A stretch of 64,000 bases of DNA, from positions 38,267,660 through 38,331,659 of the forward strand of contig NC_067206.1 in NCBI RefSeq assembly GCF_026262505.1. The letters run 5' to 3'. This document shows positions 10,031 through 29,573 of this stretch, piece after piece. The notes under the pieces are model-generated. The model made no database searches. It was not told the origin of the DNA and worked only from the letters and a program-made list of their open reading frames with translations. The translations under genes were made by a program, and so were the position numbers. Position 1 is the first letter of the stretch; each line of letters starts with the position of its first letter. Source of the stretch: Trichomonas vaginalis G3. Taxonomy: Eukaryota > Parabasalia > Trichomonadida > Trichomonadidae.

Positions 10031-11165
10031 ATGAGTATAACAACTAATTCATTGAAATCTTTAAAGTTCACTAATTCAGAATTAGAAAATATTTTAGAAA
10101 ATTTTGGAGACGGTTCTTATCCAACATATATGCAGAATGTGAAAGAGTTTTCCAGATTGTTGAATGAATTTAAATATAACGGACCAATTACTAAAAAGGC
10201 TATAATGAGATATTTATATCCCAAAAAAGTTGAAAAACAGGAGAATATTCCTCTTTATGGTCCAGAGGACCTGGGCTCAGAGAGCCTTGAAACACCTCCT
10301 GAATATTTTGAAGAAAAAATTAAACAAGATGAATATTATAACGATGAGATTGAGAAATTGGAACAATTAAGAAATGAAATAGATGAAAAATTAAGGAATT
10401 GAGAAATGCTGAGAATGAAGTAGAGGGTTTAATGAATATCCCAGCTTCAGAATCAGAAGTTCAAAAATCACATGAGGAAAGATATAAAAATTACTTTTTG
10501 GAATCTACTAAAAATTTATTAGATGGTGATATTGACGAAACACTTTCAGAAGAAGGCACAAAATTTATTCATAAACATAAGTTCAATTTATTGACAATGG
10601 AGATTATCCATGTATATTACTTTCACCTCCTCTTGATTCTGAAAAATTCAAAAAAGCACTGAAAAATGTAACATATGCAACTAATACGATTAAGAAAGAA
10701 GATCATGATATTTACACAAATTATTATTTAAATAAATGTACAGGTGTTGATAAAGTTTTTGATTTGTTAGATAAAATATCAAAAGAAACAATTGGTACAT
10801 ATAAAATTTTATGCGATTGTGGTTTCATTATTGAAGATACCAATAATGTTTCATATGAAAGAACAGCACCGAAGGAAGACGAAGTGGAAAGGTCTATACC
10901 ATTCGTTATTAAGAATATAAAAGATATGAAAACTTATAAACATTATATTTATTCATTTATTTCAGAAAAAATGGAAGCAACCCATAAAACATCATCTCAT
11001 CATTTTATAGCTATTCATACATTCCTTTTCAAAGTTGTGAAATTAAATAAGACAGGAATTAGATTTAATGTATCAGGGTACGCATTCTTGAGTAAATTAA
11101 AATGTATTCGTCACGTCGCAGATGATAAAAATTTATGTGTTCTTAATTCATTTTATGGGCTTTAA
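10031..11165 (+). pseudogene. Polinton 2 unknown protein (~375 residues), two frameshifts
   Basis: Begins at an ATG after a T-rich promoter block. The first frame (10031-10402, 123 residues) has Pro-rich and helical parts. Homogeneous-looking coding sequence continues in the next frame to about 10600 and in a third frame from about 10590 to 11165. Each shift needs only one base. The last part contains KLKCIRHVADDKN and CVLNSF, a cysteine-containing segment that I cannot assign. It is the first gene inside the left end, directly before PolB. It could be a polymerase accessory protein or a terminal-protein candidate, but no motif proves this. Confidence 0.45.
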
Positions 11166-11216
11166 AAAATAAACTTTATTTTTATTTATTTTTTTTTAAT
11201 TTTTATTCTTACATAA

Positions 11217-14200
11217 ATGAATAAAAATGGAACAGCTAAAATGAATGATAATCAAATAAGAGCCGAAGGTAGAAGGTTATTTAAACGCTTCTATAACATT
11301 CCTGATGGTGTTAATCCTAAAACTCGTAGAAGTTATTTAAATGAAGCCATAGATGCATATGAAGGATTTGACATTTCATCAGAAAGTGAGAGGTTAGCAA
11401 GAATGTTAAACGTTAATATTGATTTTTATTATTGTGACCCTCAACCAGAAGACGTAGACATTAACAAGGTAGACTTTCCATTAGTGGAATCAATAATGAT
11501 AGATCCAGAATTTGAAACAGTAAATATTTTATTAACACAGAGTCCATGTGGAAAACTTCACGCTGACAGAATTACAGACGTTGAAGCACTCACAGGATAT
11601 AAAGTTTCCCTTTTGCAAAGAAGAAGTATATTCTATCCGTGATGATCCAGAAAGGAAAAACCAAAGAAGATTTTTAAAACATTATGAGAAATGTAAAGAA
11701 AATAATGGAAGATTAATTCAAGACGTTCAATTGCAAAACACACAACAACCATATGCACCACATATCACGAAACAGAAGATATATCAATGGCTATTAGCAC
11801 ATAATTTGCAGGAATATTATAAACCAACAAGATATTATATTACTTTTGACTTCGAAACATTAGAGACTAAAGAAGAACTTCAACTTTCTGAATGTGCAAC
11901 TTTGAACGCTTACTTAAAACCATTTATGGTATCATCAACTGTCAAAATAAAGCCGCAAAGCGGTGAGGTCGTAGACCGTGATAAAACATTTACGAGGAAT
12001 TTTTGCTTAACATCAAGTGATTCGTTCATCTCTGATTGGATTGAATTTTTATTTTCAACCTGTTCATTAGTTGCTAAATCAAATATTGAACAATATGAAG
12101 AATTAATGAATACATTAAATGAGAAACAAAAGGAAGCAATGAAAGAGCTTTTAGATGAAGAATTTAATAAAGTGAATATCATTGGTTTTAATTCGGGAAA
12201 GTTTGATTTAAATTTAATTCTTCGTGATTTAAATACTGCAAAATGGAAGATAAAATCACTGCTGGGTTCATCTTCACAATTTAAGCAAATCATTGTAAAG
12301 AAAACAAACTGTCCATATGAATTAAGATTTATTGACATCAGAAATTATATAGCGGGTGGAACATTAGACCAATTCACTCAAGATTTCGGAAACAATAAAT
12401 CACGTGTTAAATCCTTTTTCCCTTATCAATTCATCACATGGGAAAATTACAAAGAAGAATTATATAAAGAGGAACCATTCACGAAAGATTCATTTTATTC
12501 AGCATTAACCCAAGAAACTATATCAGATAGTGATTATCAAATATATCTCAATGATGCTAAAAATTTTAAGAATAGATTAGAATATTTTATTCATTATTGC
12601 AATAAAGACGTTGAAATTATGATTGACCCAATTGATAAAATTATCGAAGAAACATTTGTTTATAAAATTGACATGCTTCATAATCTTTCTTTATCATCGA
12701 ATGCTTCAATGATTCGTTACGCGTTAGCATATAAGAACTTCAATCCTAACGAAACATATCCAGAAGAAGAAAATGTGGAATCAAGTTTTGAATTAACAAA
12801 AAAGTATTGGAAATATAAAATTGGATCATATAAGAAACAAGATGAAAAAGCAGAAAGGGATACTAAAAACAATGTTTCAATGGATGACTATCAATACTAT
12901 CACGATTTAATCCTTTCATCTAAATGCAAAATGTGTGGTAAAGCGTTTACATATGCTAATAAACCAACATTGGATAGAATCGATAATGAAAAACCACATA
13001 CCAAAGAAAATTGTCAGTTAATGTGTTGTTATTGCAATGTCGTAAAATCAAATAAAGATGAAGATGTTCAACGTTTAAGAATCAATTTAAGAAATTATGC
13101 ATTAAAAAATAATTTACCAATGACTTTAGATTCAGTTGAAGCTTATCACATTCTCCGTAATGGAATTACTGGTGGTCTATCAAATGTTCAACATCGTGTT
13201 AATCTTAAAGGAATCACGCACATTAATAAACTTTCATATAATCCAGAAACTAAAACTGTATCAAATGAGGACACCACCTACATTATGACTCATTTCGTTG
13301 GAGTCGACTTTAATTCATTATATCCTTCATCATTTTCATCTAATCCTCATGATTTCATTCAATATACTGACCATAAAATGTATATGCCGGGAAGATTGAA
13401 TGGTGTTATCATTTGTGATACAGCAACAAAGAAAGCAAAAGCACTGGGAATTATTAAGAAGAAAAATACTTTATTCGTGGCTGAAGTAAAGGGTCACATT
13501 GATGAAAAATACATTAATGATTACATAAACTTTTTACCGATAATAAGAAACTTAGATATTATCACAGATGAAAAAACAATTGGCAGTTTTATGTATAATT
13601 ACATGAAATCAAACAATCTACCAGTTGACCAGAAACAGAGAAAATTAACTCAGTTAGCATCAACACACAACCAATATCAACCATTTTCTTCTTATTATCT
13701 ATGGTATCTAATAGACAGATTTCATTTTATCATTGATGACATTCAATCAATTTTAACATTTACTAAAAACACTTGTTTTAATGAATTTGCGAATGAATTT
13801 ATGAACGAAAGACAAAAGGCTGAATTAGAAGGAAATAAAGGAAAAAGTTTATTTTGCAAGATTTCACTTAATGGATCATATGGTTACGATGCAATGAATA
13901 CACAAAATTACGCAAAGACTAAAATAATGAATGCACAGAAGGCACGCGTTGCATGTATGTCAAATAAGTTTAAAAACATAAGAGAAATAGGTGAAGATAC
14001 ATATCAAGTGATGCTTAAAGATAGATTTTATAGATGTGAAACATGTTTACAAGAGGCATTCTTCACTTTAGATAATAACGCAAATACTGGTATTTGGTTT
14101 TCATTTATGATTTTATGTATAAATGCTTGAATGTTAATCGTTTTCATTTCATTGAAGGTGATACTGATTCATCTTATTGGGCAATCGCTGGCGACCCAAA

Positions 14201-14687
14201 TCTTCCTAACACTCAAGCATTTCAAGCAATTGTTACTGATATAACATTTTTATGATAAAAACATTTTAAATTCGCACCATTTGATTTCTTCTGTTTTGAT
14301 GAGAAATTTAAACCTAAATTAAAGAATAAAGCTGAAGAAAAAGCACATGAGAAGAAGTTATTGGGTTTAGCAATTGAGAAACAAGGTGATAACATGGTTG
14401 CTTTATGTCCTAAGTGTTATACATCATTCAATGGTTCAATTGATGGAAGTGATTTTAAAAAGATTGCGCAAAAAATGAAAGGAGTTAGTTTACGACAAAA
14501 TAAACAATTAACACCTAAAAATTATTTGGATATAATAAATGATAAAGTGATATTTGATGGTCAGAATATTAATTTACAACTTAAAAACGGGGTAATGACT
14601 CGCTTAACAATTGGTAAGACTGCGTTAACAGGAGCACACACTAAGGCTGTATGTTGTGAAAATGGATGTTGTATGCCATTTATTTAA
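11217..14687 (+). pseudogene. Protein-primed type DNA polymerase B with HNH-like insert, frameshifted
   Basis: The start is the ATG at 11217; later apparent starts are internal. Order of features: an N-terminal domain with FKRFYNIPDGVN, a split Cys/His finger near 11610-11700 (PFCKEEV then HYEKC), exonuclease motif I FDFETLE (11848), HYCNKDVEI (about 12594), an HNH-like zinc insert (CKMC at 12925, LDRIDN, PHTKENC, CCYCN at about 13035), motif A VDFNSLYPS (13303), motif B CKISLNGSYG (13855), and motif C GDTDSS (about 14158). Frame changes occur near 11610, 14095-14110 and 14230-14270. The last piece, to 14687, contains a cysteine-rich end. It would replicate the element; this copy is broken before the catalytic motif C. 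Confidence 0.85.
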
Positions 14688-15670
14688 TGAAATGCCACAG
14701 AAGAGACAAAAGGAACCGTTAATGATGGCTTTGATTCTTGATCAAAGAGGCGGGCACCCTTAAAACATTGATTTTATTTTTATATAAATGAATAACGTAC
14801 ATTTAAAAAATTTAATTGATGATTTAATATTTAATCAAAATTTTCTTGATTATTATGATTTAAAAGCATATCTCCAAAAATATGATAACAATATAACGGG
14901 TGATGATATGGAATATTATTATCCATATTATAAAAATGAAATTTTGAAATATCATAATAAAATAATTTCTGAATTAAAGACAAAATTAAAAATAATGAAT
15001 ATTCAAAGGGAAAAATAAATCACAGCTTAAACAGTTGAAAGATTTCAAAAATAAAGTATTAACAGAAGAAGATATTGATGAATTATATAAATTATATAAT
15101 CCTGAGCCACAAAAACCAAAGGAACAAAAACAAATGGTACAAAACGCCCAGGTCCTTCAGACCATAAATGAAGCACAAGCTTTAATTTATGATTCATTAG
15201 TTAAACCATATTCAGCCCGACTTTTAAATGAAGATCAACTTTTGGAATTCATCCTTCAACATAAACTCGAAGCAGGAAAGTATATCAAACCTTTATATAC
15301 AGCATATTTAAAACAAATGAATAGAATACATCCAGAATTAATGAAGGAAGGAAATGAAATCCAAAATCAAAGCAGATAAAATTAAACCACTTGCAACACC
15401 AAAACCTCCAACGACAGTACCTCCTCCTCCTTCAGTTAATCCTTCATCATTCACTTTATTATATCCATTTCAAACATTAAAGAAGCAAAAAGATTTTAAA
15501 AAGGATTTCAAGATATTAAATAAACCAATTGACCCAAAAATTCAACCGTTAAAGGAAAAATTTAGTCGCCCTTCATTTGCATCATATCCATATTCATACG
15601 AAATCGATCATCTGGAATATTCAAAAGGAAAAGTTACTTATTTATTTGCCATTAACATTAACACTAGATA

Positions 15671-15698
15671 TAGGGTGTCCAAAGGTGCGTTTAGCACA
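15671..15698 (+). repeat. Mariner left terminal inverted repeat (28 bp)
   Basis: Pairs with the reverse complement of 16947-16974; the only difference is C versus T at position 18 of the repeat. Confidence 0.9.
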
Positions 15699-15812
15699 GC
15701 GCTCTATATGAGACTATTAAAGGAGATATATGCTGATTATAATATATAATAAAAAATATGAATATATGTATATGATGAGTATGTTGTATTTTGGCGCCAT
15801 GCCGGGATATAA

Positions 15813-16894
15813 ATGAATTTTGAGACAAGAGGCGGTTTCGCGGGAAATTTTGGCGGGATTTTTTTCATTTTTTTAATGAATCATAAAGAAAACATCCTCG
15901 CTCTTGCAAAAAAATGCAAAGACTGTAAAAAAATCTACGAGACATTGGTAAAATGCTTCGGTATGGATGCTCCTAGCTATTCCACTGTAACGTATCATGT
16001 TAGGATGTATCACTTCATGAACAAAAAAGGCGCCCATCATAAAAATTGACAAAAAATCGCCGGATCAAAGAAAAATCAAAGCAATTCTTCAAGCGCTAGA
16101 TGAAGACCCAAGAGCATCACTCAGAAGGATAGAGGAGATGACAAAGATACCACGTACAACAGTCAGTTATTATCTGCACAATTATTTGAACTACAAACTA
16201 GCGTATACACGTTGGGTTCCGCACAACCTTAATTCAGTTCAAAAAAAATCTAGAGTCCAATCTTCGAAAGAGCTCCTCTCTATATTGGGTGCGTATCAAT
16301 CCAAGAAGTTTCGCTTTTTAGTAACAGGGGACGAGTCTTGGTTTCAATATGCAACAGAAGCCAAAATCATGTGGATCCCGAAGGATGAAAATCCGCAAAC
16401 ATTCCCGAAGAAAAAAATTGACACACCAATGATGATGTTGTCGGTTTTTTGGGGGCGTGAATGGCATCATCGCAATTGATATTCTTCAAAAAACTAATAC
16501 GATGAATACTCAGTATCTAATTGACAATGTTCTTACTCAAATTATCAATTCTGATGAGTTTGAGAAATCCAAACAACAAAAACAAAAGTTTGCAATTCAT
16601 TTTGATAATTCAAGAGTTCACAAAAGTCATAAGGTAATGAATTACTTGGTGGAAAACAATGTCAAAGTTGTTCCAAACCCAATTTATTCACCTGATATTG
16701 CACCCTCTGACTTTTATTTATTCGGCACGCTAAAAAAGAGAGCTGAAGGACGCGAATTCGCGAGTCCAGATGATCTTGAAAATTTTGTAAGAGAGCAATT
16801 TGAGCAATTTTCTCATGATGATTTAAAGCGTGTCTTTCAAGCCTGGATCGATCGCTGCGAACGCGTGATTGAATCCAATGGTGATTATATTTAA
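15813..16894 (+). pseudogene. Mariner transposase with two +1 homopolymer shifts
   Basis: Three consecutive frames make one transposase. Frame 1 (15813-16049) is the start of the DNA-binding region and ends at a stop after HHKN. Frame 2 (about 16035-16479) contains a helix-turn-helix-like segment (RASLRRIEEMTKIPRTTVS) and the first catalytic Asp (VTGDESWFQY). Frame 3 (16457-16894) holds the second Asp (IHFDNSRVHKS) and the third (YSPDIAPSDFYLFG), with mariner-like spacing. Each shift corresponds to one extra base in a homopolymer: an A run near 16040 and the G run near 16451-16455. It would excise and insert the element by cut-and-paste at TA. As written it cannot make a full protein. Confidence 0.88.
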
Positions 16895-16946
16895 ATAAAC
16901 TTTATATATATGTAACTTGTTTATTTCTATTCGCAGTATTCAGGTT

Positions 16947-16974
16947 TGTGCTAAACACACCTTTGGACACCCTA
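16947..16974 (-). repeat. Mariner right terminal inverted repeat (28 bp)
   Basis: Reverse complement of the left repeat with one mismatch; followed by the TA duplication at 16975-16976. Confidence 0.9.
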
Positions 16975-17625
16975 TATTTATATTGCATTCCAGTGAAAGG
17001 GAAAACAGAACAGGAAACAAGAAGAGCTATTCAATACTTACTAGATCATGAAAGAGTAGATAATATCAGGGGTGATGGTGATAAAGGATTTCAGGCAATT
17101 ATGATTCATTATTTCCCACAAATTAATTTTTACTTCTCATCTTCTCCATATACGTTTCATAATAAAATAGTTGATGCGGTAATGAGAACTCCTAGAGATG
17201 CGTTAGGGGTTAACGGTCAGATATACTGGGATGGAAATCATGACTCCATCATACAACAGTTAGTATATTATTACAATAATACATGGCATAGAACTATAAA
17301 CATGAAACCAGTGGAAATGAAAAATGATATTTCAAAAGAATGGGAATATATTAGAAAACAAATGGAAAGGTTAAATGATGTTAAACGTGAACAAATTAAT
17401 TCGGGGCTCATGAATTTTAAACAAGGGGATAAAGTTTTGATTCATCTCGATTATGGAAAAACTGATAAATCAATGACAAAAAGAAGACGAAGATTTGACA
17501 CAATAGCTGAATTTGTTAGATATATTAACGGCAATGCATTAGTTGAAGTTGACAATAAATTAATAGAAATTCCGATTTATTTTATTACTCTATTATATTT
17601 AAATAATATTTAATTTTTTTTATTT

Positions 17626-17633
17626 CGTAAGAA
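17626..17633 (+). promoter_or_regulatory. CGTAAGAA start-site motif, also present in the terminal repeats
   Basis: CGTAAGAA abuts the ATG at 17634. The same octamer occurs three times in each terminal repeat and, with one spacer base, before the ATG of the gene starting at 30496. It may be an initiator-like element used by the Polinton. Confidence 0.4.
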
Positions 17634-17897
17634 ATGAGTGACAACAAAGCAGTCAAGAGTCCAGACGATGAATATAAAAAGAAACTAAATAGAATTAAAT
17701 CAAAAATATGCTATTACAAAAAGAAGCCGCAATGTGGTGGGGTTGAAAACGATAAAGAAATAATCGAAAAATTAGAAACTTACCGTTCAATCCTTAAACT
17801 GAGTGAAGCAAAAATAAAAGAATTTAATAGAATAAATAAATTGATTGGAAGAGATGAATTTAATAAAGATGAATTTTTAAACTCAATCCAAATTTAA
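17634..17897 (+). CDS. Small charged helical protein of Polinton 2
   Basis: An 87-residue ATG-initiated frame. It is rich in Lys, Glu and Ile with helical periodicity (IIEKLETYRSILKLSEAKIKEF), has one Cys near CYYKKKPQCGG, and shows no membrane span or known motif. It lies just after the integrase on the same strand, with the octamer CGTAAGAA touching its ATG. Its stop codon overlaps the stop codon of the convergent gene at 17894-18058 within a TTAA. Its function is unknown; it could be a DNA-binding or accessory protein. Confidence 0.5.
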   Translation: MSDNKAVKSPDDEYKKKLNRIKSKICYYKKKPQCGGVENDKEIIEKLETYRSILKLSEAKIKEFNRINKLIGRDEFNKDEFLNSIQI

Positions 17898-18058
17898 TTT
17901 TTATTCCTCTTTGACAACATCTCTCTTTCCATCATTACTGCATAACCGCATTTTCTCAGTTTTAGTGGTTTGTTATTTTTAGCAAGTTCTCGCATCATTT
18001 TTATCGTTTCCTCCCTTGTTATGATTCGTGGTAAATTTTGAGCTTGTGGGGTATCCAT
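17894..18058 (-). CDS. 54-residue basic protein, convergent with its neighbour
   Basis: Short ATG-initiated frame: MDTPQAQNLPRIITREE at the start, then a basic helix with KLRKCGYAVMMEREML. Support comes from the element's typical AT-rich start block (TTTTTATCATAA before ATG) and from the clean stop-to-stop contact with the gene at 17634-17897, a pattern repeated at two other places in this element. Too short for family assignment. A role is not known. Confidence 0.4.
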   Translation of the reverse strand: MDTPQAQNLPRIITREETIKMMRELAKNNKPLKLRKCGYAVMMEREMLSKRNKN

Positions 18059-18100
18059 TTATGATAAAAATAAAAATTTAAATTATGCCGTTCTAAAGTT

Positions 18101-18600
18101 TGAGACAACATGACATTTAGACAACAGTCCCGGAAATGATTTGTCATGACTTCATCGTAATGAGTGTAAATGACCCAAAAATAATGTTTTCATTAATGGA
18201 TTCAGGTTATTCAATAATGAATTATTTTTGAAGAACTGAAGGTGTCACTACGTCACCATGTGTCACTCGGTTATTTAACTTCTCTGAAAAAATGAGACAA
18301 CATGACATTTAGACAACACAGGAGGATTAATGAGGAAGGCACTTATGAATTATTTTTGAAGAACTGAAGGTGTCACTACGTCACCATGTGTCACTCGGTT
18401 ATTTAACTTCTCTGAAAAAATGAGACAACATGACATTTAGACAACACAGGAGGATTAATGAGGAAGGCACTTATGAATTATTTTTGAAGAACTGAAGGTG
18501 TCACTACGTCACCATGTGTCACTCGGTTATTTAACTTCTCTGAAAAATGAGACAACATGACATTTTGACAACACAGGAGGATTAATGAGGAAGGCAAAAA
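18101..18600. repeat. Left repeat array of the PrimPol cassette (128-bp units)
   Basis: Three tandem copies with a 128-bp period (unit starts at 18219, 18347 and 18475), preceded by a partial unit at 18101-18126. Each unit contains GTCAC iterons (TGTCACTACGTCACCATG, then TGTCAC). The units recur in opposite orientation at 20975-21720, on the other side of the PrimPol-helicase gene. Confidence 0.9.
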
Positions 18601-18617
18601 TAAATTCCAATCATACT

Positions 18618-20918
18618 TTATAAAGCTTCATTTACAGGTATTTCATCGTCAGTAAATGAATCCTCATTATCGTTTGGTTCAACCTGTTTATATAATCCTT
18701 TCATTTCTTCTTTCAAAACATAACACCATGTTTGTTTACCATCTATTCTTACCTGTTTCTTATCACATTTATCCCTAATGCTCATTTGGAAATTCTTGTC
18801 TTTCATGTCTGATGGTTTGCAGAATAGAGCTTTTTTACATGTCATACCTGCACTCAATTCATCATAATGTGTATTTATCCATACATCTAAAGGATTTGTT
18901 GATAACTCGATTAAATCTTGTTTGGCTTCAGTCATCGGAATGATTCGTACATTAAACGATGAAAGGTCATATTGCATAAAATATGTTAAAAGGTTATCAT
19001 AAAATTCCTTTGCATGAATCCATTAAATTCTTGAAGTAATCAAATTGACCCTTGAATTTACCATTAACCCTTAAAACTACGTATCTTCTGTCTCCAACTT
19101 CAATTTTGACAGGGTAGACGTTGTTAGTTACGAAAATGAAGTTTGCAACGTTCTGAGCAGTTCTTCTGGGTTGATTCTTTTCATTAATTCTAATCTCATT
19201 ATCCGTTATAATTGATTTCAAAGCGTTGAAGTTTGCAAGTCTGTCTTCACCTACATTCTTGAGTTCATTAAGTACAAGAAACATTTTATTTTCAACTACT
19301 GAGTTGAAATTATCCGTTAGCTCACTTATTTCAGTAATGTTTTTACATGAATAACCAGGGAGAAGTTCAGAAATAATATCTGTAAATCTGTTTTTACCTG
19401 TTCCCTGAAGTTCTTTCAAAATAATTGCTGTTTCATTCTTGATTCCAGGATGTTGAATCATTGATGCAATCCAGCCCAGAAGGTATTTATACACTTCATC
19501 GTTATTATCACAAATGGCTTCTTTAATGAAATCCATAAACATCTCAATTTTTGAGTAATCAGGCTTTTCGAGAATGTTGTATTTATAACCCTGAAACGTT
19601 GAGAAAACATCTGGAGAATCAGATTTAAAGCAAACACCCTTAACGGTTAATGAGGATAATTGATTTAGTAGTACATCCCATGCTGTTATTGTTTTACCTT
19701 CTTCTTTAAATAATTTAATCATTTTGAGTGACTCTTTCATGTTTGATTGAAGAACGAATGATATTTGATTCATTTTGTCGTGTATGTTGTAATCTTTCTG
19801 AATGAAATATTTGTTTCCACAATCTACAAAACGGATTACACGTGATAAATCCTCATTACTTCAGAACTGTTTTTATACTGATGATTTTCAGCCTTGCGTC
19901 TAATATCTGTTATCAAAAACGAGTCATCAAGTTTGATATCAAATGTTATTTTTGGCTTACGTAATAAAGGTAAAACATATTCATCATAATATTCCTTTTG
20001 ATAAAGTTTTAGAATCTTCACCAAAACAAATGGAGAAGTCATTAAATGTGCATATCTACTACGTGCTTTTTCAAAATTACTTTTTGCATTTTCTGTTAAA
20101 TTGCAGAAGTTATAAACGTTATCGTATGCTTCATTAATTAAATGATCCGGTAACGAATTAATAGCTTGAAACAGTGTGAATAATGTTATTTCTTTTTCTA
20201 AATTCATGTTTCCACCGTCATTATGTACTTCAAAATCACAGATGCCATCAACTATGCTCTGGGCAAGTTTATCGTCAATGTTTACATCTTTGTTTTCATT
20301 CATTATACTCTTTATTTCTTCATTCTTCTGTTCAACTCTTACCTTAATATTCAAATCATTTAATATATCGTTTACTGTTCTGTTAATGTTGAATCATAAC
20401 TTCCACGAATGAATGAGTATGTATTGATTGGTTCTGTTGCATTCTTGCGAACTCTTGAATTCAGCCATAACCACTAATGAACGCTTTGAATCATCATAGA
20501 AGTCATTATGTCAATATCATAATCATTGCAGAATAACATTTAATCATTCTGTTCGAGTGAATAGAAGAAATTAGTGTTGCAATAAATGTGAAGACCTCCT
20601 GATGCGGTTTTAACGATAACATCTTTATCCGAAAGTTTTGATAAAATTCTTTTCTAACTGTTTCTTTAAGTTCATCATTGTATGATTTATTGATATCAAC
20701 ATCTATAATCGTTAAATTTGAATTTTATTTACTAATAAAGCCATACCAGTTTTCCTTCCTCTTCCTCCATCGTGTTTGAGGTAGTTATGTAAATCAATCT
20801 TGTTTTCACCAATTCTTTCGTTGAGGGTTTTAGTTTCTGCCACAACTAATTCCTCAGCTAATGAATCAATAACTTTTTCATCAGAAACGATATAGTTGCT
20901 GTTGTTTGTTGCTGTCAT
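18618..20918 (-). pseudogene. PrimPol (AEP primase) - D5-like SF3 helicase, several frameshifts
   Basis: One gene read in pieces from the ATG at 20918. Residues near 20711-20686 give TIIDVDINK (AEP hDhD motif) and near 20609-20590 TASGGLHIYC (the SGGLH motif), typical of archaeo-eukaryotic primases of PrimPol type. After the linker piece 20354-19836 comes the SF3 ATPase (about 19850-18997): Walker A ELQGTGKNRF, Walker B-like MFLVLNELKN, and the sensor motif FIFVTNN. The C-terminal piece 18977-18618 has FNVRIIPMTEAKQDLIE, characteristic of D5/DUF5906 proteins. Shifts occur near 20712, between 20700 and 20360 (several), near 19850 and near 18985. The intact form would be about 760 residues and would prime and unwind DNA. 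It is flanked by inverted repeat arrays. Confidence 0.85.
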
Positions 20919-20974
20919 TTATATAGGAATAAAAAAATAAAAATAATTTTAAAACTAACTTTATTTTTGGGCTG

Positions 20975-21720
20975 ATCAAATTTTCGTAAATGTTGTCAAA
21001 ATGTCATGTTGTCTCATTTTTTCAGAGAAGTTAAATAACCGAGTGACACATGGTGACGTAGTGACACCTTCAGTTCTTCAAAAATAAGTCATAACTACCT
21101 TCCTCCTGTGTTGTCAAAATATCATGAGTTAAATTACCTGGTGACATGGTGACACCTTCAGTTCTTCAAAAATAAGTCATAACTACATTCCTCCTGTGAT
21201 GTTGTCAAAATGTCATGTTGTCTCATTTTTTCAGAGAAGTTAAATAACCGAGTGACACATGGTGACGTAGTGACACCTTCAGTTCTTCAAAAATAAGTCA
21301 TAACTACCTTCCTCCTGTGTTGTCAAAATATCATGAGTTAAATTACCTGGTGACATGGTGACACCTTCAGTTCTTCAAAATAAGTCATAACTACATTCCT
21401 CCTGTGATGTTGTCAAAATGTCATGTTGTCTCATTTTTTCAGAGAAGTTAAATAACCGAGTGACACATGGTGACGTAGTGACACCTTCAGTTCTTCAAAA
21501 ATAAGTCATAACTACCTTCCTCCTGTGTTGTCAAAATATCATGAGTTAAATTACCTGGTGACATGGTGACACCTTCAGTTCTTCAAAAATAAGTCATAAC
21601 TACATTCCTCCTGTGATGTTGTCAAAATGTCATGTTGTCTCATTTTTTCAGAGAAGTTAAATGACCTGGTGACACATGGTGACATAGTGACACCTTTAGT
21701 TCTTCAAAAATAATTAATTA
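20975..21720. repeat. Right repeat array of the PrimPol cassette (208/209-bp higher-order units)
   Basis: Four copies of a unit related to the left array but inverted, at 21008, 21217, 21425 and 21634 (spacing 209, 208, 209). Each holds a full subunit with GTGAC iterons and a shorter subunit (CCTGGTGACATGGTGACACC). The outermost part, to about 21765, also matches the outer edge of the left array (about 18190-18240) in inverted orientation. Confidence 0.9.
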
Positions 21721-21832
21721 TTGAATGACCTAAAAACCATTAACGTAAACATTCATGAAAACATATATTTCTGCAGTTCATCCATTACTTCATTACCTAA
21801 TTAATTACAGACATAAAATATATTTAGTTCAT

Positions 21833-23587
21833 TCAATGAACGCGGTACCATGCGAATACAGTCATAAATGGTGGCATGTATTCTTTACCCAAGCCTGTTG
21901 GATTTGTTGTGAAAGTGTGTGAATGATTTCCTCCTGGTTCAGTTGGTCGAAAAGTCTTTTTTGCCGAATGGTTATAATCTGGAGATAAAACGTCATTGCC
22001 AGCATAATATTCTGAGTTGTATAATGGGTGGTCTCTTAATGAGTGACTATGGTCGCCAGAAAAGTTTGTAGTTCCTGTATGAGTGTGCGGTGGAAGGTTT
22101 TCAATATTTATTTTCTTTGAACCTCCTGTTTCCTTTGAACTGTTAGCACAATACAAAAACCTGTCAACTATTTGTTCCCATGCACCAACACCAAACATTA
22201 CTTGAGGACCTCTTGCATCCATAGATGTATAAATAGAACCTACTGGGTTCATTAAATCAAACATATGAGATATTATAGGATTGTCTCTTTTGAACTTAAA
22301 ATATAGTGCAGCTATTTCAGGTTTCTTCTGGTTTGTGTCAGAATATTTTTTATAATATAATCTTATGTTTTCAGGGTAGGTAAAATCTTGACTATAATAT
22401 TTATTTCTGTCATCTGTATAATAATATACTATTCTCGTTTTTTCTATTGCATTATATCTTTTATATCTATAATATTCTAAATATAATGTTTGCTTTTTTG
22501 GGTCTACATGTGGTGTTCTGTCGTCATCTCCATAGTCATAATAATATGGTGCTGGAGCTGGGTCAGGCAATGTCATATCTGCCATTTCATAAACTCTTAA
22601 ATATTTCTTTTGTTCGTCTCCATATAAGTTTAAGTAGCAGTTGTTGTCTAATGGAACTTTAACTTGTGTACCATTATTCTTTATATAGCCTACATACATT
22701 TCATTGTTATTTTTCGGAATGAGTTTATACCGTATACCATTTTTTAAGGAGTGTACAAACTCCCATCTAAAATATTTGTTTTCTTCATTGACAGAAAAGT
22801 CACCAACAATAGTTTCAATATTTTTTGTTCCTATCAAACTTTGGTATATTTCGTTAACATATGTTTTATCTGCCTTCTTCATTAACTCATCGTTAACATA
22901 TGTTTTATCCGCTTTAAGGTCTAAACATCCTGAAACCCATCCTGTATCAGCTTTAGTTTTTAAAATCTTTGATGTCCATTCATGATACCATTCAACCATT
23001 TCTTTAATTTCATTATCTTTTTCATTATCTTTTTCATCCACATATTCCTTATCTGCCTTCTTATTTAACTCACTATCCACATATTCCTTATCCGCCTTCT
23101 TATTTAACTCACTATCCACATATTCCTTATCTGCCTTCTTATTTAACTCACTATCCACATATTCCTTATCTGCCTTCTTATTTAACTCACTATCCACATA
23201 TTCCTTATCCGCCTTCTTCATTATGTCATTTAGGAAACCTTTTATGAATTCCTCATTTAAATTAAATCTTCCAATCTTCAAAACTTTAGGAAATGCATTT
23301 AATGCGTAATATCTCTGTTCTTCTGGTGGAATTGATGTTATATCATCCGTTATACCTTTAATTTTTGAATTCATAAATAAAATTTCTTTTATATTTGATA
23401 TCACTGCACCACCTTTGCAAACGAATTCGAAATGGTCATTTTTCAATACTATCTCCAAATCTCCATATTTCAACCTTTGCGTTTGTTCTGCCGTCTTTGA
23501 ATTATATGCATATATGGCGTATGTAATGGTTTGAGGGACCTGGGTGTTTTGTGCCTTAAGTTGCTGTGGTTGCTGTTGTTTAATCAT
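21833..23587 (-). CDS. Phage tail-fibre-like adhesin with tandem coiled repeats
   Basis: Intact 584-residue frame from an ATG. Residues about 120-190 are near-identical 13-residue repeats (KADKEYVDSELNK, about five), with more diverged copies to about 255 (KADKTYVNDELMK). Repeats of this kind form trimeric fibres in bacteriophage tails. The C-terminus is a collar/receptor-binding type domain: NPVGSIYTSMD, GVGAWEQIVDRFLYC, LPPHTHTG, SGDHSHS, NHSHTFTTN, ending MPPFMTVFAWYRV, as in phage short tail fibres with His-box metal sites. It has no signal peptide. It likely forms fibres or vertex spikes on a Polinton virion. The start codon overlaps the stop of the upstream gene (ATGA). Confidence 0.8.
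   Translation of the reverse strand: MIKQQQPQQLKAQNTQVPQTITYAIYAYNSKTAEQTQRLKYGDLEIVLKNDHFEFVCKGGAVISNIKEILFMNSKIKGITDDITSIPPEEQRYYALNAFPKVLKIGRFNLNEEFIKGFLNDIMKKADKEYVDSELNKKADKEYVDSELNKKADKEYVDSELNKKADKEYVDSELNKKADKEYVDEKDNEKDNEIKEMVEWYHEWTSKILKTKADTGWVSGCLDLKADKTYVNDELMKKADKTYVNEIYQSLIGTKNIETIVGDFSVNEENKYFRWEFVHSLKNGIRYKLIPKNNNEMYVGYIKNNGTQVKVPLDNNCYLNLYGDEQKKYLRVYEMADMTLPDPAPAPYYYDYGDDDRTPHVDPKKQTLYLEYYRYKRYNAIEKTRIVYYYTDDRNKYYSQDFTYPENIRLYYKKYSDTNQKKPEIAALYFKFKRDNPIISHMFDLMNPVGSIYTSMDARGPQVMFGVGAWEQIVDRFLYCANSSKETGGSKKINIENLPPHTHTGTTNFSGDHSHSLRDHPLYNSEYYAGNDVLSPDYNHSAKKTFRPTEPGGNHSHTFTTNPTGLGKEYMPPFMTVFAWYRVH
23036..23216. repeat. 39-bp tandem repeat inside the fibre gene
   Basis: Four full copies plus a partial one, almost identical at base level (TCCACATATTCCTTATCTGC begins each on the plus strand). 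They encode the 13-residue fibre repeat. High identity suggests recent expansion. Confidence 0.92.
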
Positions 23588-24321
23588 TTATTATGATTTA
23601 AAAATAAATATTTAATCGTTATCTCATCAGCTATTTTTTCTATTTGAAATTGCCATAATATTTCATTCATGAATTCTAAATCACAATCAAATAGGTCAGT
23701 TATTCTAAATTTAATATTTGATAAATCTTTTGAATGAAGAATAAATGAATTCCCGGATAATTGAAACGGATATGATAAAGAAAATGTGTTTAAGTTGATG
23801 GATAAAATGTTTTGTATTGATGGGTAAGAGTTAGGGTCTAATGTTTGATGTGAAAATCTCATTGGGGTATTAACTTTATCACATTTGATTAAAATGAAAT
23901 TGGAACCAGTGTCAGAATACAAAACATCCCCAACATCTTTTTCAAAATTTAATATCCCCAACAATGAACGAAGATGAGGAGTACAAAATTTAATTTTCAG
24001 CGGAAATTTAATAAGGTTATTTATTTCATCAAGTTCAAAAAGTTTATCGGGTTTTGATTTAAAATTTTCTTCATACCATACGATAAATGATTCATTTAAA
24101 TAACTTAAAATCATGTTAATATCCCATTTCGCTATCACATTATTTATATACATATCATACGTTTTTTCAAGGTCATCTTTAATAAATGATATATAATCTG
24201 AAGGGTCTAAAAGAATGGGATTAAATTTACCACTCACAGAAACGAGAGTAACATTATAAATTCCGCTAACTGTTAAATTTAATTCACAGCTATTATTCGA
24301 AATAATATTGATAATTGACAT
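23584..24321 (-). CDS. Polinton 2 structural-type protein, 245 residues, unknown
   Basis: Intact ATG-initiated frame. Mixed hydrophobic/polar sequence with beta-strand-like character (SCELNLTVSGIYNVTLVSVSGKFNPILLD at the start, split by charged loops). No catalytic motif or membrane span. The gene is divergent from the plus-strand gene at 24341 with only 19 bp between start codons, and its TGA stop overlaps the ATG of the fibre gene. Size and position next to the fibre suggest a virion protein such as a penton or fibre-attachment protein; this is an inference. Confidence 0.5.
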   Translation of the reverse strand: MSIINIISNNSCELNLTVSGIYNVTLVSVSGKFNPILLDPSDYISFIKDDLEKTYDMYINNVIAKWDINMILSYLNESFIVWYEENFKSKPDKLFELDEINNLIKFPLKIKFCTPHLRSLLGILNFEKDVGDVLYSDTGSNFILIKCDKVNTPMRFSHQTLDPNSYPSIQNILSINLNTFSLSYPFQLSGNSFILHSKDLSNIKFRITDLFDCDLEFMNEILWQFQIEKIADEITIKYLFLNHNK

Positions 24322-24340
24322 TTTTATTACGATTAAAAAT
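24322..24340. promoter_or_regulatory. 19-bp divergent start region
   Basis: Only 19 bases (TTTTATTACGATTAAAAAT) separate two opposite start codons at 24321 and 24341, so the promoter elements of both genes must be tiny or lie within coding sequence. Confidence 0.35.
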
Positions 24341-24819
24341 ATGGTAAAGCGTTATTTTCCAGTGATAAATAAAACTAGAATAAGATTACCTCAAGAATTC
24401 ATAAATTCAACGAATAAGAAATTCATTCATGTTATAAATTTTAGTGTTTTCAGAAAATATGAGTCAATGTCATATTCATCAACGGTTATATTTCACTTCA
24501 TTCAAATTTAGTTCAATCAAACCCATATAATGACCATTTCATAAGATTTTCAGATGGTATTAAAAATGTAATTGATAGATTAAAATATGAACAGATTGAC
24601 AATATCGAATTTTTGGAATTTTGGTTTAAATATCCTGATGGAAAAAAGATTGAAGTTAAAGATAAAGCTGATACTATAACAAAAACAATTACAATGACCG
24701 ATCCAGATAGTGGGGAACAAAAAGAAATAAAACAAACGATAGAAACTGGTGAAAGGTCAATTATTATTGATTATGATTCAAAGGATTATTATTCGATAAT
24801 GTTAATGCTTGAATATTAA
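24341..24819 (+). pseudogene. Polinton 2 unknown gene, one frameshift
   Basis: Starts at the ATG at 24341 (MVKRYFPVINKTRIRLPQE). The frame stops at 24511, while coding-like sequence continues one base out of register through FSDGIKNVIDRL to the stop at 24819. The protein would be about 158 residues, acidic and Thr-rich near the end (DKADTITKTITMTDPDSG), with no known motif. Its stop overlaps the convergent gene's stop inside TTAA (24816-24819). The function is unknown. Confidence 0.45.
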
Positions 24820-25515
24820 ATAGCCTTAACAAAGAATTTTTCAAGTGATATTTTATATTCATCAACTATTTTATTATAAATATCATTATATGTTAAATGA
24901 AGTTCAGTTGTTGTTCCGTTCTTTGATATCTTAATTGTGCTAATATCCTTTATAGGATTTATTTTTGCAACTGTTCCGCAGCATGAAACCTCATCATCTA
25001 TGAAAAATTGAATCTTAACGTCTGAATCTTGAACATCACAAAGAATGGCGATAATGTGAATTAATGATTCATAAGGTAAAATAATTAAACCAGATTGGTC
25101 AATTAAATTTATTATTGAATCATAATTATTAATTATTATATCACGGTAAATTTTCATTAATTCAGAATTAATGTCTATTTTATATGGCGCATTGCGACTG
25201 GAATCGTAGATTCCTGGGTTCTCGATGTTTGATGAAAGAGGTGGGGGGTATGTTGGATAAGTGGGAATTTCAACAGGTTCTTTACCGGGTTCAGATAAAA
25301 TGATTGGGTCTCCATCTTCTTTATTTTGCTCCTCCTCTTTTCTTGGTAAGTCACGAGTTAATAAATTTGGACTGTGTTGCTGACCTTGTTAATTCAGGGC
25401 TAACATTAACTTTAACATTTTGAATAATTCGTGATTTATCATCATTTACGTTATAACCAACCGTAATCTCTGCTTTTGCGTTTGTGTTCTTTTGACTTGT
25501 GAAACGTCTTCTCAT
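24816..25515 (-). pseudogene. Polinton 2 unknown gene (~230 residues), one frameshift
   Basis: Starts at the ATG at 25515 (MRRRFTSQKNTNAKAEIT), runs to a stop near 25350, and continues one base out of register through a Pro-rich linker (PTYPTYPPPLSSN) into the 113-residue frame at 25157-24816, which includes a Cys pair (DDEVSCCGTV). The basic N-terminus suggests a nucleic-acid-contacting arm. No family is recognised. It lies within the structural-gene arm. Confidence 0.45.
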
Positions 25516-25599
25516 TTATAATTGAATAAAAAAAAGAAAAATATATTTAAAGTTTTATTTAGTTGTTACGGTAATATCCCAAGGTTCATCCTTGTTTGC

Positions 25600-26499
25600 T
25601 TATACTTTCTTTGTAACTGCACCAATTATGTTATTGATATTGCTTTGAGTTTCTTCCAGTCTTATTTTATCATTTACAATATCTTTAATCATTTCATTAC
25701 ATGCATTCTTAAAACCATCTGATTTTTCTAATTTACGTCTATCACTTTCTTTAATTAAATCAAAGTTATAACCTTGTTGAGAATAAAGTGGTTTCTTTAT
25801 CAATTCCTTGAACGCTTCTGAAAGTGAAGATGAAGAAATTCTTGCCACTTGAATTGGTTTAAATTCTGCTTTCATTGCTTCTTTCTGTTCATTGAACACT
25901 GGATCGAATAAAGCAACTTTAAAGAATTTCTTAGCTGGAATTTCAGGTCTAATATTTGCATATTGACCATCAAACTGATTAACATATCGTGGTAATCCAT
26001 CCGGTCCCTCTTCAACAGCATTTAATTCTTCATTGAAATAAGAATATGGATTATAACGGTATGAATTAATTGGACCATTTTCACTTTCTCCAATGTATTG
26101 TTTAACAGCTTTTCCATTTTCATCAAATTTCATAGGATAACGTTCATTATATGCTTTACGTTTAGGATAATCCGTCATTGTTAATTTATAACCATTTATG
26201 ACTTTAATATTACCTTGACCATCAGTAACGAAAACTTCATTTATACCATCAGGTTTTCCATTTGGACCCGTAATGTCTGCTTCATGTGCTTCCCAATTTG
26301 GTCCATGACGTTTGGCATATGCTTGAGCTTCTGGTAATGTTAAAACGTTTCTCATTTGTTTAACATCCTTTTGACGACCGGCAACAATGTGGACTAATTC
26401 TTTCATTCCGTCTGGAACTTTCATAGTTCTATTATATGCACCCTTTTTGTTTGTCCCTTGTTTTAATGGAACCTGTAGAAGATTTGCTATTTCTGTCAT
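25600..26499 (-). CDS. Polinton 2 conserved-looking protein, 299 residues, unknown
   Basis: Intact ATG-initiated frame with a basic N-terminus ([16 protein letters not shown]). A distinctive central segment reads [20 protein letters not shown] then [20 protein letters not shown], a repeated-Gly/Asp beta-turn pattern like calcium-binding or beta-propeller loops. Aromatic-rich loops follow ([12 protein letters not shown]), and the C-terminus is helical. No membrane span. It lies just downstream of the packaging ATPase on the same strand and 40 bp away, in the position where virion proteins are found. A minor capsid or core role is plausible but unproven. Confidence 0.55.
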
Positions 26500-26539
26500 G
26501 TTTAATTATAAATAAAAAATAAAAATTAATTATAAAAAG

Positions 26540-27367
26540 TTAATCAAATTTAACACCTCCTTTATTTAAATCAACTATTATTTTTCCATGTTCTCCTAAT
26601 TGTTGATATTCTGTGTAAAGTTCATTAATGCTCATTGGTAAATTCACTTGATAAAGCATAACGTTCAACTGTTGACGACTAAAACCACTGAAAATGAAAA
26701 GTGTTGATAGATTTGATTTAATGTTTGTGCTTAATGCTTTGAAATATTGAACAGCCATAAAGAATGAACACTGAATGTGTCGACATTGAGTTAATAATTG
26801 ATTAAAATATGATTTCTCATTAGTTATTAGTTTTGATTTCACTGCATCATCTAGAAAAATGAGTGAATGCAAAAATTCTTTATCAAAATTTGAAATGGAA
26901 AGTGTTTCAAATAATTCATCCCGTTGTTTATCAATAATTTTATCCTCTAATCCTTGCTTCTTGATTGTATTATATAATTCTTTATACATTAAAAAGTTTT
27001 TTAAATAATCTTCTGCTTCTTCTTGTGATAAATAAATAATTGGAATTTTGATTAAATGCTTTAAAGATTCAAATGTATCATCTGAAGGTGAACCTGAACG
27101 GTTGATATAAATTAACACATGTGAATGGGGTGAAGTGTTAGCAATAATGATAATTTGTTTTAATATCGTTAATGTTTTACCTTTATTCTGTTTACCAATT
27201 GCTGCAGTGATTGAATTTAAGTAACATTCAGAATATGGAATTTTCATTAATTTTTCCTTAGATAGAGCATTTCTATTATCACTCAATGCTTCATTAATCA
27301 TATCATCTACGTATGTATTATATACTCCCGCTAATTCTTCATAAGGGGTGGATGAATTTAAATCCAT
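26540..27367 (-). CDS. A32/FtsK-type genome-packaging ATPase
   Basis: Intact 275-residue frame from an ATG. Walker A is at about residue 56 (AAIGKQNKGKTLTI), preceded by a conserved hydrophobic strand. Walker B is FLHSLIFLDDAVK at about residue 170. A further conserved stretch (LLTQCRHIQCSFFMAVQYF) fits the arginine/sensor region of A32-like ATPases. Length is typical for Polinton packaging ATPases. It would pump the element's DNA into a preformed capsid. It sits between the capsid gene upstream and the 299-residue gene downstream, all on the minus strand, forming the morphogenesis cluster. Confidence 0.85.
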   Translation of the reverse strand: MDLNSSTPYEELAGVYNTYVDDMINEALSDNRNALSKEKLMKIPYSECYLNSITAAIGKQNKGKTLTILKQIIIIANTSPHSHVLIYINRSGSPSDDTFESLKHLIKIPIIYLSQEEAEDYLKNFLMYKELYNTIKKQGLEDKIIDKQRDELFETLSISNFDKEFLHSLIFLDDAVKSKLITNEKSYFNQLLTQCRHIQCSFFMAVQYFKALSTNIKSNLSTLFIFSGFSRQQLNVMLYQVNLPMSINELYTEYQQLGEHGKIIVDLNKGGVKFD

Positions 27368-27407
27368 TTAATCAAAAATAATTTATAATTTTAAACATTT
27401 CTATTCA

Positions 27408-29029
27408 TCAAATTTCATCATATGAACTTCTATACTGTGGTGGTGTACCTGTTGGATGATATTTCAAACCTTCATCCGGTGTCCATGTCCAATACGTAGT
27501 CCTAGTAAACCAAACCTGAGGAGGATTTGTCACCTTTGAACAGTAAGTGTCATTTACACCCTGAATGATTGGATAAGCTTTCACTTGTACTGTAACTTGT
27601 GAGTTGAAAGTTTCTAATCCATCAAAGAATATACCCGCTCCATCACGTTGAACTGGAATAGTGCATAAGAATGAAGTTTGGTCTTTCCATGTTCTAGCTA
27701 ATGGCGTGCCATTATCATCATTCAGTGTCTAGTTAATGAGTCCTCGTATTCTTCCGTGCATTCATTCACTCCATCTAAATCAGAAGCTTGAAGCATACGT
27801 GTAAAGAATATGTCACCCACTGTGGTCATCGCTTGATCGGGGAAGTTTCTGGAATCTATAGTGACCTGAAGACCTCGAAGCATTGGATTTTCTAAAACTG
27901 TTCTTTGCATTGCATTCTTTGGAAATGTTAACACAACATCTGTAACATTATGAAGAGCGTATGAGAAATCTGAGCTAATACCTTCAGGAGTGATGCATCC
28001 TCCATTTAGTGAACGAACGTCAATATGTTGAGCTGGAATCATGAATGGATCTTCCTTACTAAATAAACGTGGTATTGCTTTAACTGATTCTTCAATTAAA
28101 CCATATCCTGGTGTAATGCATTTATCCTCTAAAACTTCCATCTTTGTGCATGAAATAATAACGTCATCAACTGTTGCGTCAGCAGATGTAGCGGCTAAGC
28201 TTGTAATTAATTTGGCAGGAAGTCCGATTTGTTGGAATTTGCGATCATATTTTAAACATGATTCATAATCTTTTCATATATTTTCATCAGTTATCTTTTC
28301 ATAAACGTAATTTTGTAAATCAGCAACTCTTAACGGGTCAATCTGACAAAATACTAAAGTATCCCTGAAAACATAATATTTAAGAATGATTTCACCAAAT
28401 GATTTAGGATAATCATCGAACGCCTGAAATGCTAACAAATCATTTACCGGAATAATCATATCAAAAGTGACATCAACTTCTTCATTTGCTTTCTTGAAAA
28501 CTTCTGAAGGGTCAATATATTTACCACATACTGAGTTATCATATTTTTGAACATTATTATATAACGAATGAACAAACTTTTTAACTTTCCTTTCTGATTT
28601 CGGTTTATATGTTGCAAATGCAAAAGATTCACGGGCGCAATCCATCTGAAGATAACCGGCATCACCTCTTTCAGTTTCTACTTCTAATTGTTTAAAGTTT
28701 TGATTTGATGATTTGTAACCAACGAATAAACGCATGCATTTAAAAGCGGCATCACATGTGAAAGCTTTATTTGAAACTAGAGTTGCTTTAACTTTGCGTT
28801 TAATATATGTGTCACCTAATTGGTTCACATCATGAGCCGGATTTGTAATTCTTAAATGAGTTTGTTTATCATCAAAATATGGAGCATCAGAGTCATAGCA
28901 TGAACTTTCAAGTTCTCTATAATATCTTCTACCGTCATTCTTTGCGAATATTTCATTTATCTTTTCGAATGAATGAAACACATTTCCATTAATCGGTTTA
29001 GTGTTTGGCACCAAATAGTTAGTCGTCAT
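27408..29029 (-). pseudogene. Major capsid protein, broken by an in-frame TGA and a frameshift
   Basis: Starts at the ATG at 29029. The first 251 residues end at an in-frame TGA (28274-28276), after which the same frame continues with capsid-like sequence to 27722. A one-base shift near 27730 leads to a last segment ending at the stop 27408-27410. The total is about 540 residues, close to the 524-residue candidate of Polinton 1. Shared order of features with that protein (a VNDLLAF/GEIILKYYV joint near the middle) supports the double jelly-roll capsid call. Directly upstream of the packaging ATPase. This copy cannot make a full capsid protein. Confidence 0.65.
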
Positions 29030-29098
29030 TTATTAATAAATAAAAAATCAAAATTAAAAGATGAAAATGAATTTTTAATTTTAATGAAATAATCAACT

Positions 29099-29314
29099 AT
29101 GGCTGCAGGTATATTTAAGAAACTGTGGGATAAAGTAAAAAGAGGAGCGCATAAAGTTTGGGAAACAATGAAGAAAGGAGCAAATTGGATATTTAAGAAT
29201 AAAGAAGCAATTAGTGACATTGCTGAATCAATAACACCAAAAGCTGCCCCAATAAGAGAAATATTAAATAAAGGAGAAAAAGTTTATCAAAGACTTCAAC
29301 CGATACTAAGATAA
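29099..29314 (+). CDS. Small basic amphipathic protein, MAAGIFKKLW type
   Basis: A 71-residue ATG-initiated frame. The N-terminus MAAGIFKKLWDKVKRGAHKV is a cationic amphipathic helix, followed by a second helix (NWIFKNKEAISDIAESI). It shares its opening with the oppositely oriented gene at 29373-29573 (MAAGFFKKLW), so the two are paralogues. Short cationic amphipathic helices encoded next to a capsid gene recall membrane-active or DNA-condensing minor proteins of double jelly-roll viruses, but no homology was tested. It is divergent from the capsid gene, 69 bp away. Confidence 0.55.
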   Translation: MAAGIFKKLWDKVKRGAHKVWETMKKGANWIFKNKEAISDIAESITPKAAPIREILNKGEKVYQRLQPILR

Positions 29315-29372
29315 AAATAATATTTATTTATTTTTCCACTATCTACCCCTATTTTATTAAGTATTCCTTCAG

Positions 29373-29573
29373 CTATTCCACCAATTGCGTTACTGCTTGT
29401 GCTCCCATCGCCGGATTACCTGCTTTAGTACCTAATACCCCACCTATGATAGTTCCTGCCGTTTTCGCTACTGGTGCCAAAAAGTTTGCAATGGGTTTAA
29501 TAATCTTTTGATGAACCCAACCCGCAGCTTTCTTAATTCCTTCCCATAATTTTTTAAAGAATCCTGCCGCCAT
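29373..29573 (-). CDS. Small basic amphipathic protein, MAAGFFKKLW type (paralogue)
   Basis: A 66-residue ATG-initiated frame. MAAGFFKKLWEGIKKAAGW forms a cationic amphipathic helix. It continues through a second segment (KPIANFLAPVAK) into a Gly/Ala-rich hydrophobic stretch (TAGTIIGGVLGTKAG) that could insert in a membrane. Paralogue of the gene at 29099-29314, from which it is convergent with a 58-bp gap. A membrane-disrupting or capsid-internal role is suggested by composition only. Confidence 0.55.
   Translation of the reverse strand: MAAGFFKKLWEGIKKAAGWVHQKIIKPIANFLAPVAKTAGTIIGGVLGTKAGNPAMGAQAVTQLVE

Follow-up and report, generated by a model that had tools for sequence, protein, structure and literature searches.

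Several described replication systems place an initiator next to the sequence that it reads. The C-terminal domain of the Rep protein of the Staphylococcus aureus pathogenicity islands (SaPI) is described as reading iterons directly downstream of its own gene (PMC7581432), and the PrimPol of pRN1 has a C-terminal winged helix with the origin located just downstream of the gene (PMC4234260). In geminiviruses even close relatives have different iterons, which are matched to the respective Rep (PMC12548392). In herpes simplex virus 1 (HSV-1), the chloroplast genome and the 2-micron plasmid, sequence between inverted repeats flips freely, and the inversion is tied to the mode of replication (PMC3147054). 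Here we describe a module that resembles both kinds of system. It lies in a 64 000-nt stretch of the genome of Trichomonas vaginalis G3 (hereafter the window; genome 180.85 Mb, contig C4 of the assembly labelled G000), within a 21.4-kb Polinton/Maverick element at 9804..31161, and is based upon a PrimPol-D5 primase-helicase gene enclosed by two oppositely oriented repeat arrays. The gene is found in both orientations at a fixed place in the element, halves of the element appear to be exchanged through the module, and the sequence of the repeats is associated with three residues in a predicted DNA-binding wing of the protein.

The PrimPol gene occupies approximately 18618..20918 on the reverse strand. 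On one side lies array A (18217..18596, forward strand), comprising 3.0 units of 128 nt with 99% matches, and on the other array B (20990..21713, reverse strand), with 3.5 units of 209 nt and 98% matches, where each 209-nt unit is built from alternating sub-units of 120/121 and 88 nt. The two arrays are formed from one repeat in opposite orientations, the longest pairs (80–132 nt) being 88–98% complementary, and the outer edges of the module also pair as inverted sequence (18201–18332 with 21603–21734, 89%). A reading made earlier from the letters of the window (the sequence-only reading) had described a gene between inverted arrays of one repeat family with matching outer edges, the whole behaving as one module, and all of this is borne out. 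It passed over three features treated below: the broken frame of this PrimPol copy, the mariner-like insert in the gene to the left, and the two orientations of the segment among other copies in the genome. Each unit comprises an AT-rich part followed by block 1, usually a triple of an 8–10-nt word, and block 2, TGACAACATGACATTTWGACAACA. With up to three mismatches, block 2 occurs eight times and block 1 seven times in the window, all of them inside the arrays or at their edge, while dinucleotide shuffles gave none. The block-1 triples, proposed iterons to which PrimPol would bind, are of the T type in array A (18241..18266, 18369–18394 and 18497–18522, forward strand) and recur in array B (21043..21068, 21252–21277, 21460–21485 and 21669–21694, reverse strand); the outermost block 2 marks the left edge of the module (18101..18126, forward strand), as found by the motif scan and the edge pairing. 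Block 1 exists as three main alleles, T (TGTCAC words), G (GGTCACC words) and B (GCTACC words), together with two seen in single loci, GGTCCCTC in L010 and TGTGCC words in L004. In some units the word is doubled rather than tripled, and one locus (L017) mixes B and T units. Block 2 (for example 18550–18573) is nearly constant across the array alleles, while block 1 varies.

The PrimPol gene of the window is fragmented, its pieces lying in different frames, and the longest piece matches Pfam DUF5906 (E = 2.6e-20) and a VapE-like family (2.5e-9). Open copies of approximately 770 aa are present elsewhere in the same genome, where there are at least 147 matches to the gene. In an alignment of 16 members D77, D79, G112, G113, H115, D142, G512, G514, K515, E558, N605, R617 and R618 are invariant, and N557 is nearly so (numbering of the copy P0002). 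Thus the AEP and Walker A motifs reported by the sequence-only reading are invariant or nearly so. AEP, Walker A and SF3 motifs are all present, with Pfam and PDB matches for the helicase part; using the motif names and the class definition that we take to apply, the protein is a D5-like PrimPol-SF3. A winged helix is predicted at the C-terminus. The codons of a Q-V-R tripeptide (18747..18755, reverse strand) lie in its predicted wing and are the proposed specificity residues, on the basis of this prediction and of the allele association described below. Between array B and the start of the gene is a leader of approximately 70 nt (20919..20989, reverse strand). Metagenomic relatives extend down to approximately 32–37% identity over most of the length, one being named from Histomonas; a scan of viral contigs with PrimPol gave four pattern matches, none of which was confirmed.

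The position of the module within the element is constant. A probe from the left flank was used to take the best 40 of 927 candidate places, the window included, and 10 kb was examined from 20 of the 39 others, roughly the best-matching ones. The sampled loci lean to copies most like the window, and all come from one genome assembly. All 20 left flanks lead into arrays and PrimPol sequence (a partial gene in L001, L004, L009 and L015), yet in seven of them the gene is reversed (L004, L005, L007, L010, L013, L019 and L020). We denote as W the orientation of the window, and as F the flipped one. Pairing the coordinates of the 147 PrimPol matches with the left- and right-flank matches listed orients 53 genes, 33 as W and 20 as F with none contradictory (binomial p = 0.098 against 1:1), the other 94 having no neighbour among the matches listed. 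Both orientations include genes with an open frame of at least 769 codons, for example L007, L013, L019 and L020 as F and L003, L008, L014, L016 and L017 as W.

The junctions are regular. The 3′ end of the gene lies 7–11 nt from the nearest array in 24 of 27 oriented loci (exceptions in 2/18 W and 1/9 F), so that an iteron-like array is located directly beside it as in SaPI, and the 5′ end lies 64–88 nt from the nearest array (exceptions in 0/14 W and 2/9 F). Because the distances at both ends are kept in both orientations, the crossovers are placed in the arrays, and the two orientations can be regarded as isomers generated at inverted repeats. The strand of the arrays obeys a rule, being + to the left of PrimPol in 41/41 cases and − to the right in 36/37. 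The exception is L036 (C4:30413140–30420600), where KilA-N lies between two PrimPol genes that face each other. Of 29 genes that exceed 1.9 kb, 27 have arrays on both sides (the array at the 5′ side is missing in L006 and L015), so relatives with the gene at the same place and mostly devoid of arrays, which would have spoken against the sequence-only reading, are not what is found. Left and right arrays share a 13-mer fraction of 0.74 within a locus and 0.34 between loci, a difference not reached in 10 000 permutations, and the partner in the same locus is the best match in 17/29 loci, indicating that the arrays of one element evolve together. Orientation changes four times on a quick PrimPol tree and five times among the 23 labelled rows (seven of them F) of a tree built without the gene tail, suggesting that inversion has happened repeatedly; a tree of the left flank gave seven changes but, with one starred branch, was set aside. 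A Mantel comparison of left-flank, PrimPol and right-flank distances, aimed at decoupling at the arrays, was uninformative (halves of the left flank −0.11, halves of the right flank 0.80, different segments 0.36–0.39).

Some elements have the same half on both sides of the module. In L018 the left flank is located on both sides, and the flank pairs listed include one more left–left and one right–right case. The ends and middles of these mirror-image elements were compared. The left–left elements are C3:16040062–16058247, with arms 99.4–99.7% identical and a target-site duplication of GCAAAC, and C3:23502282–23520423 (arms 98.8–99.4%, TTCACT); the right–right element is C6:761964–784089 (arms 99.6–100% where compared, TAGGTC). 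The window terminal repeat had no BLAST match in the searched pieces of the first of these, whose ends were located from the AGTAGTA/TACTACT tips and their mutual symmetry. As the 6-bp duplications are exact at both ends in 3/3 elements, the mirror-image forms were integrated as such, and the recombination preceded integration. Polinton halves are thus seen to recombine through the module, as judged from these assembled copies.

In many copies a KilA-N gene (PF04383, E = 8.1e-23) is also located between arrays. In the three cases compared (L002, L005 and L008) most of the PrimPol leader is common to the KilA-N cassette, with a shared run of at least approximately 45 nt. Since the arrays that flank KilA-N are of equal sign, the gene would be lost or gained by recombination between them. 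In 17/18 pairs listed it is directed toward PrimPol, and it obeys the sign rule in 12/13 matches longer than 300 nt in the fetched loci, a count that leaves out shorter pieces and L002, where KilA-N is merged into another feature; the exception, C4:30418604, lies within L036. A further candidate exception at C6:12437915 was dismissed, as its locus (L035) conforms to the rule and contains the remnant of a PrimPol gene. The strand rule is that expected from recombination between the arrays. Three arrays permit four states: W with KilA-N on the right is common, F with KilA-N on the right or on the left is seen, and W with KilA-N on the left is seen in L006 alone, a copy cut off after the gene. 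KilA-N itself has at least two alleles (L002 and L014) that differ sharply right after a common N-terminus and could constitute another specificity system. In L016 (oriented positions 4535–5470) a third cassette lies among the arrays, with an unnamed frame of 312 codons.

The array alleles go with the tripeptide that follows K-C-x-x-K in PrimPol in most of 52 typed copies. In 33 exploratory loci HRR was found with B arrays in 8/8, QVR with T in 5/5, QRR with T in 5/6 and QRK with G in 11/13, with one case of RRR and TGTGCC. The last is L004, which thus has a tripeptide of its own; in L010 QRK is followed by T in place of I. A gene-wide scan for sites that track B arrays pointed to residue 702 and to codons near 720–733 (the arrays of L006 and L035 are of the GCTACC type, and L006 was grouped among the ‘A’ loci in that scan). 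Rules for the tripeptide and for E702 were then written down before 20 unseen copies were drawn at random (a seeded shuffle of 127; five were extended slightly). The typing script postdates sight of the new sequences but uses motif words fixed in the written rule. The tripeptide rule was right in 19/19 new copies that have a tail (10 HRR-B, 4 QRR-T, 2 QVR-T and 3 QRK-G; L052 has no tail), compared with a mean of 7.6 and a maximum of 17 in 100 000 permutations. E702 as a specificity residue, which at first separated 7/7 from 0/20 (L010 and L017 set aside), failed in the new set and was rejected. Along the tail, in 50 loci, the association with array type is 0.86 at the Q/H codon of the wing, 0.49 at the K/R codon and ≤0.40 at others. 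The Q/H residue is 729 in P0002 and 726 in P0003; the codon counter of the association table is one higher (730).

We consider it probable that the module is the Polinton's own unit of initiator and origin, in which iterons are read by the wing of PrimPol and the inverted arrays recombine. The C-terminal winged helix of PrimPol-D5 would bind to block 1 in the array units, and the three wing residues would determine which allele is bound. Each array would be a potential origin where PrimPol loads, primes and unwinds; binding and origin activity are inferred here from the analogy with SaPI Rep and pRN1. The same repeats would then serve as origin and as recombination substrate. Near-identical inverted arrays, busy during replication, may undergo homologous recombination, presumably coupled to replication, that flips the gene, deletes or adds cassettes such as KilA-N between direct arrays, and homogenises left and right arrays. 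Between two molecules it would give left–left or right–right elements that still have terminal repeats and are able to integrate. The second origin-plus-helicase system that the sequence-only reading had offered as one possibility gains support, as the array allele tracks residues in the predicted DNA-binding wing.

A number of observations weigh against this reading. The PolB of the same element could do all the replication, and in the geminivirus studied iteron identity is reported not to be essential for replication (PMC12548392), which calls for caution here. The tripeptide rule is broken by three exploratory loci (L006, L039 and L010), and the array at the far (5′) side of the gene breaks it in 4/25 (L007, L010, L039 and L041). 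The clause on residue 702 was wrong in 4/19 new copies (L049, L050, L054 and L057), and the new copies include relatives, an insert being common to L051 and L055. In 12/29 loci the left array is best matched by the right array of another locus. Two of the classes also differ at a silent site (CAG/CAA); the segment that carries the code thus moves as a haplotype, and part of the association is due to linkage with the 3′ array close by. When a tree is built from the remainder of the gene, at least 12 changes of array type and 14 of tripeptide are counted, but with three starred branches the independence of the cases is unproved; in a test on independent pairs a single pair falls on supported branches, too few for significance. 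The claim of repeated inversion likewise leans partly on weakly supported trees, with 5/26 branches starred as well supported on the quick PrimPol tree and 3/26 on the tree without the gene tail.

The silent site belongs also to an alternative that we regard as unlikely, in which the arrays are ordinary tandem repeats, their content is flipped by host homologous recombination, and the tripeptide is linked to them by hitch-hiking because the 3′ end of the gene is only 7–11 nt from an array. The short distance, the silent difference and the homogenisation of arrays within an element all fit this. Against linkage of this kind stand the profile of the association, which is 0.06–0.25 from table codon 765 to the array but 0.86 at the wing codon approximately 135 nt before the stop, and the agreement of the far 5′ array with the tripeptide in 21/25 classifiable of 29 loci. 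The unit, moreover, keeps a mostly tripled short motif while the sequence of the motif changes, and for SaPI Rep the reading of iterons directly 3′ of the gene by the C-terminal domain is described (PMC7581432). The clean separation into two orientations, with crossovers confined to the arrays, might instead be the work of a dedicated invertase acting at array sites, the inversion being a regulated switch of PrimPol expression. We find this very unlikely: Pfam scans of PrimPol and 14 other open reading frames (13 from the window element and KilA-N of L002; not every frame was scanned) contain no site-specific recombinase, the gene carries its own 70-nt leader so that its promoter context is little changed, and the palindromes and the gain and loss of cassettes are expected from plain homologous recombination too.

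The sequence-only reading had also proposed that the module is a mobile cassette captured by the Polinton. A nested replicon of this kind would account for the compactness of the unit (3.6 kb) and for the inverted match of its edges, but it is hard to reconcile with a module that occupies the same place in all 20 left-flank loci, where it is the orientation that changes, or with array copy number and internal cassettes that vary, unlike fixed transposon ends. No module was seen on its own, a Polinton flank being readable in 30/33 loci; arrays without PrimPol were not surveyed, 40 of 2138 candidates having been scored. We therefore hold this proposal to be highly improbable. Mis-joining of copies in the assembly has about as little to recommend it as a source of the flips and palindromes. 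Both were judged from the assembly alone, in a family with at least 147 near-identical matches, yet an error would hardly be as common as 20/53 flipped genes, exact target-site duplications at both ends of 3/3 palindromes would not arise from mis-joining, and six contigs are chromosome-sized (20–40 Mb).

The closest picture for the preferred reading, of an initiator with its own origins, is thus a SaPI- or pRN1-like initiator whose iteron origins are doubled in inverted orientation, with the arrays recombining. SaPI Rep, the SaPI5 primase-helicase and SCCmec Cch2 belong to bacterial islands in which the iteron origin is located downstream of the gene; in the eukaryotic Polinton the gene is invertible, arrays in opposite orientation lie on its two sides, and PolB is present as a further replication enzyme. 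With the pRN1 protein ORF904 the likeness extends to a PrimPol-helicase, a predicted winged helix and a putative downstream origin, with a weak match in the AEP region (E = 0.17), whereas the pRN1 origin is described as a stem-loop without iterons (PMC4234260). HSV-1, the chloroplast genome and the 2-micron plasmid share the presence of a segment between inverted repeats in both orientations; the repeats here are short tandem arrays that resemble initiator sites, and mirror-image halves integrate separately. The geminivirus Rep is unrelated to PrimPol, and the genome is circular single-stranded DNA. We know of no such arrays or inversion for the PrimPols of phage NrS-1 and African swine fever virus, nor for poxvirus D5/E5. 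The published passages on Trichomonas Polintons that we consulted (PMC10120064) mention neither inversion nor arrays, KilA-N cassettes or mirror-image elements, and among the titles and abstracts listed from the open-licence PMC literature none was recognised as treating inversion, iterons, KilA-N cassettes or mirror-image forms of these Polintons.

Repeats that resemble docking sites of the gene's own protein suggest a replication-start system with a readable protein–DNA code. With at least 147 primase-helicase matches in one genome, and origin-like arrays whose alleles match in most of the copies typed, what PrimPol does and how an SF3 initiator would recognise its origin become directly testable. 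Array recombination would provide a route by which one viral element yields flipped, mirror-image and cassette-exchanged genomes that integrate, which bears on how Polintons came to fill approximately one third of the T. vaginalis genome, the share given in PMC10120064. More tentatively, and with some doubt on our part, these Polintons might together form a eukaryotic DNA virus population whose initiator–origin code can be switched. Wing and iteron allele would move between backbones via the arrays, so that co-resident elements form replication-compatibility groups; halves would reassort into left–left and right–right genomes that replicate and integrate, a defective or split-genome life style; and PrimPol would provide an internal-origin mode beside the terminal mode of PolB.

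A family-B DNA polymerase (PolB) of the protein-primed type, a retroviral-type integrase, capsid genes, terminal inverted repeats and 6-bp target duplications are features of the Polinton family. The window element has terminal inverted repeats of 162 nt (left 9804..9965, forward strand; right 31000..31161, reverse strand) that are 100% identical, a 6-bp target duplication ACGTGA on both sides and a length within the Polinton range of approximately 15–30 kb. The putative PolB gene is located at 11548..14130 on the forward strand (DNA_pol_B_2, PF03175, E = 3e-8, a partial match alone), and an A32-type packaging ATPase, also expected of a Polinton, at 26540..27367 on the reverse strand (Pox_A32, E = 4.4e-5, slightly above the curated cut-off). 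The other Pfam matches in the element are to a DUF4108 protein and a Gp10_C-like C-terminus. No capsid family was matched in Pfam among the scanned frames (the 13 of the window element and KilA-N of L002). In T. vaginalis, where Polintons are high-copy, the capsid gene is given as DUF4106 (PMC10120064), and an SF3 helicase gene is reported in some Polintons elsewhere (PMC3671162).

The element in the window is a worn copy, with the PrimPol gene split across frames and an insert breaking the gene to the left of the module. The 3′ part of that gene (16948..17613, forward strand), without a Pfam match and with open frames of up to 545 aa in relatives, presumably belongs to an integrase, of which the window holds the C-terminal piece. 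The insert (approximately 15672–16973), at TA and with terminal inverted repeats, is called mariner-like from what we take to be its characteristic ends, AGGGTGTCC...GGACACCCT; it is not present in the left arm of L018. On the right flank, the gene with the Gp10_C-like C-terminus (21833..23587, reverse strand) has its hypervariable half adjoining array B. Between 21800 and 22800, 200-nt bins of this fibre-like gene align in 6–7 of 14 loci, and just outside on both sides in 14/14; the variable half looks like the product of an exchange of receptor-binding tips. Outside the Polinton, an open frame of 2026 codons is present at 57910–63990.

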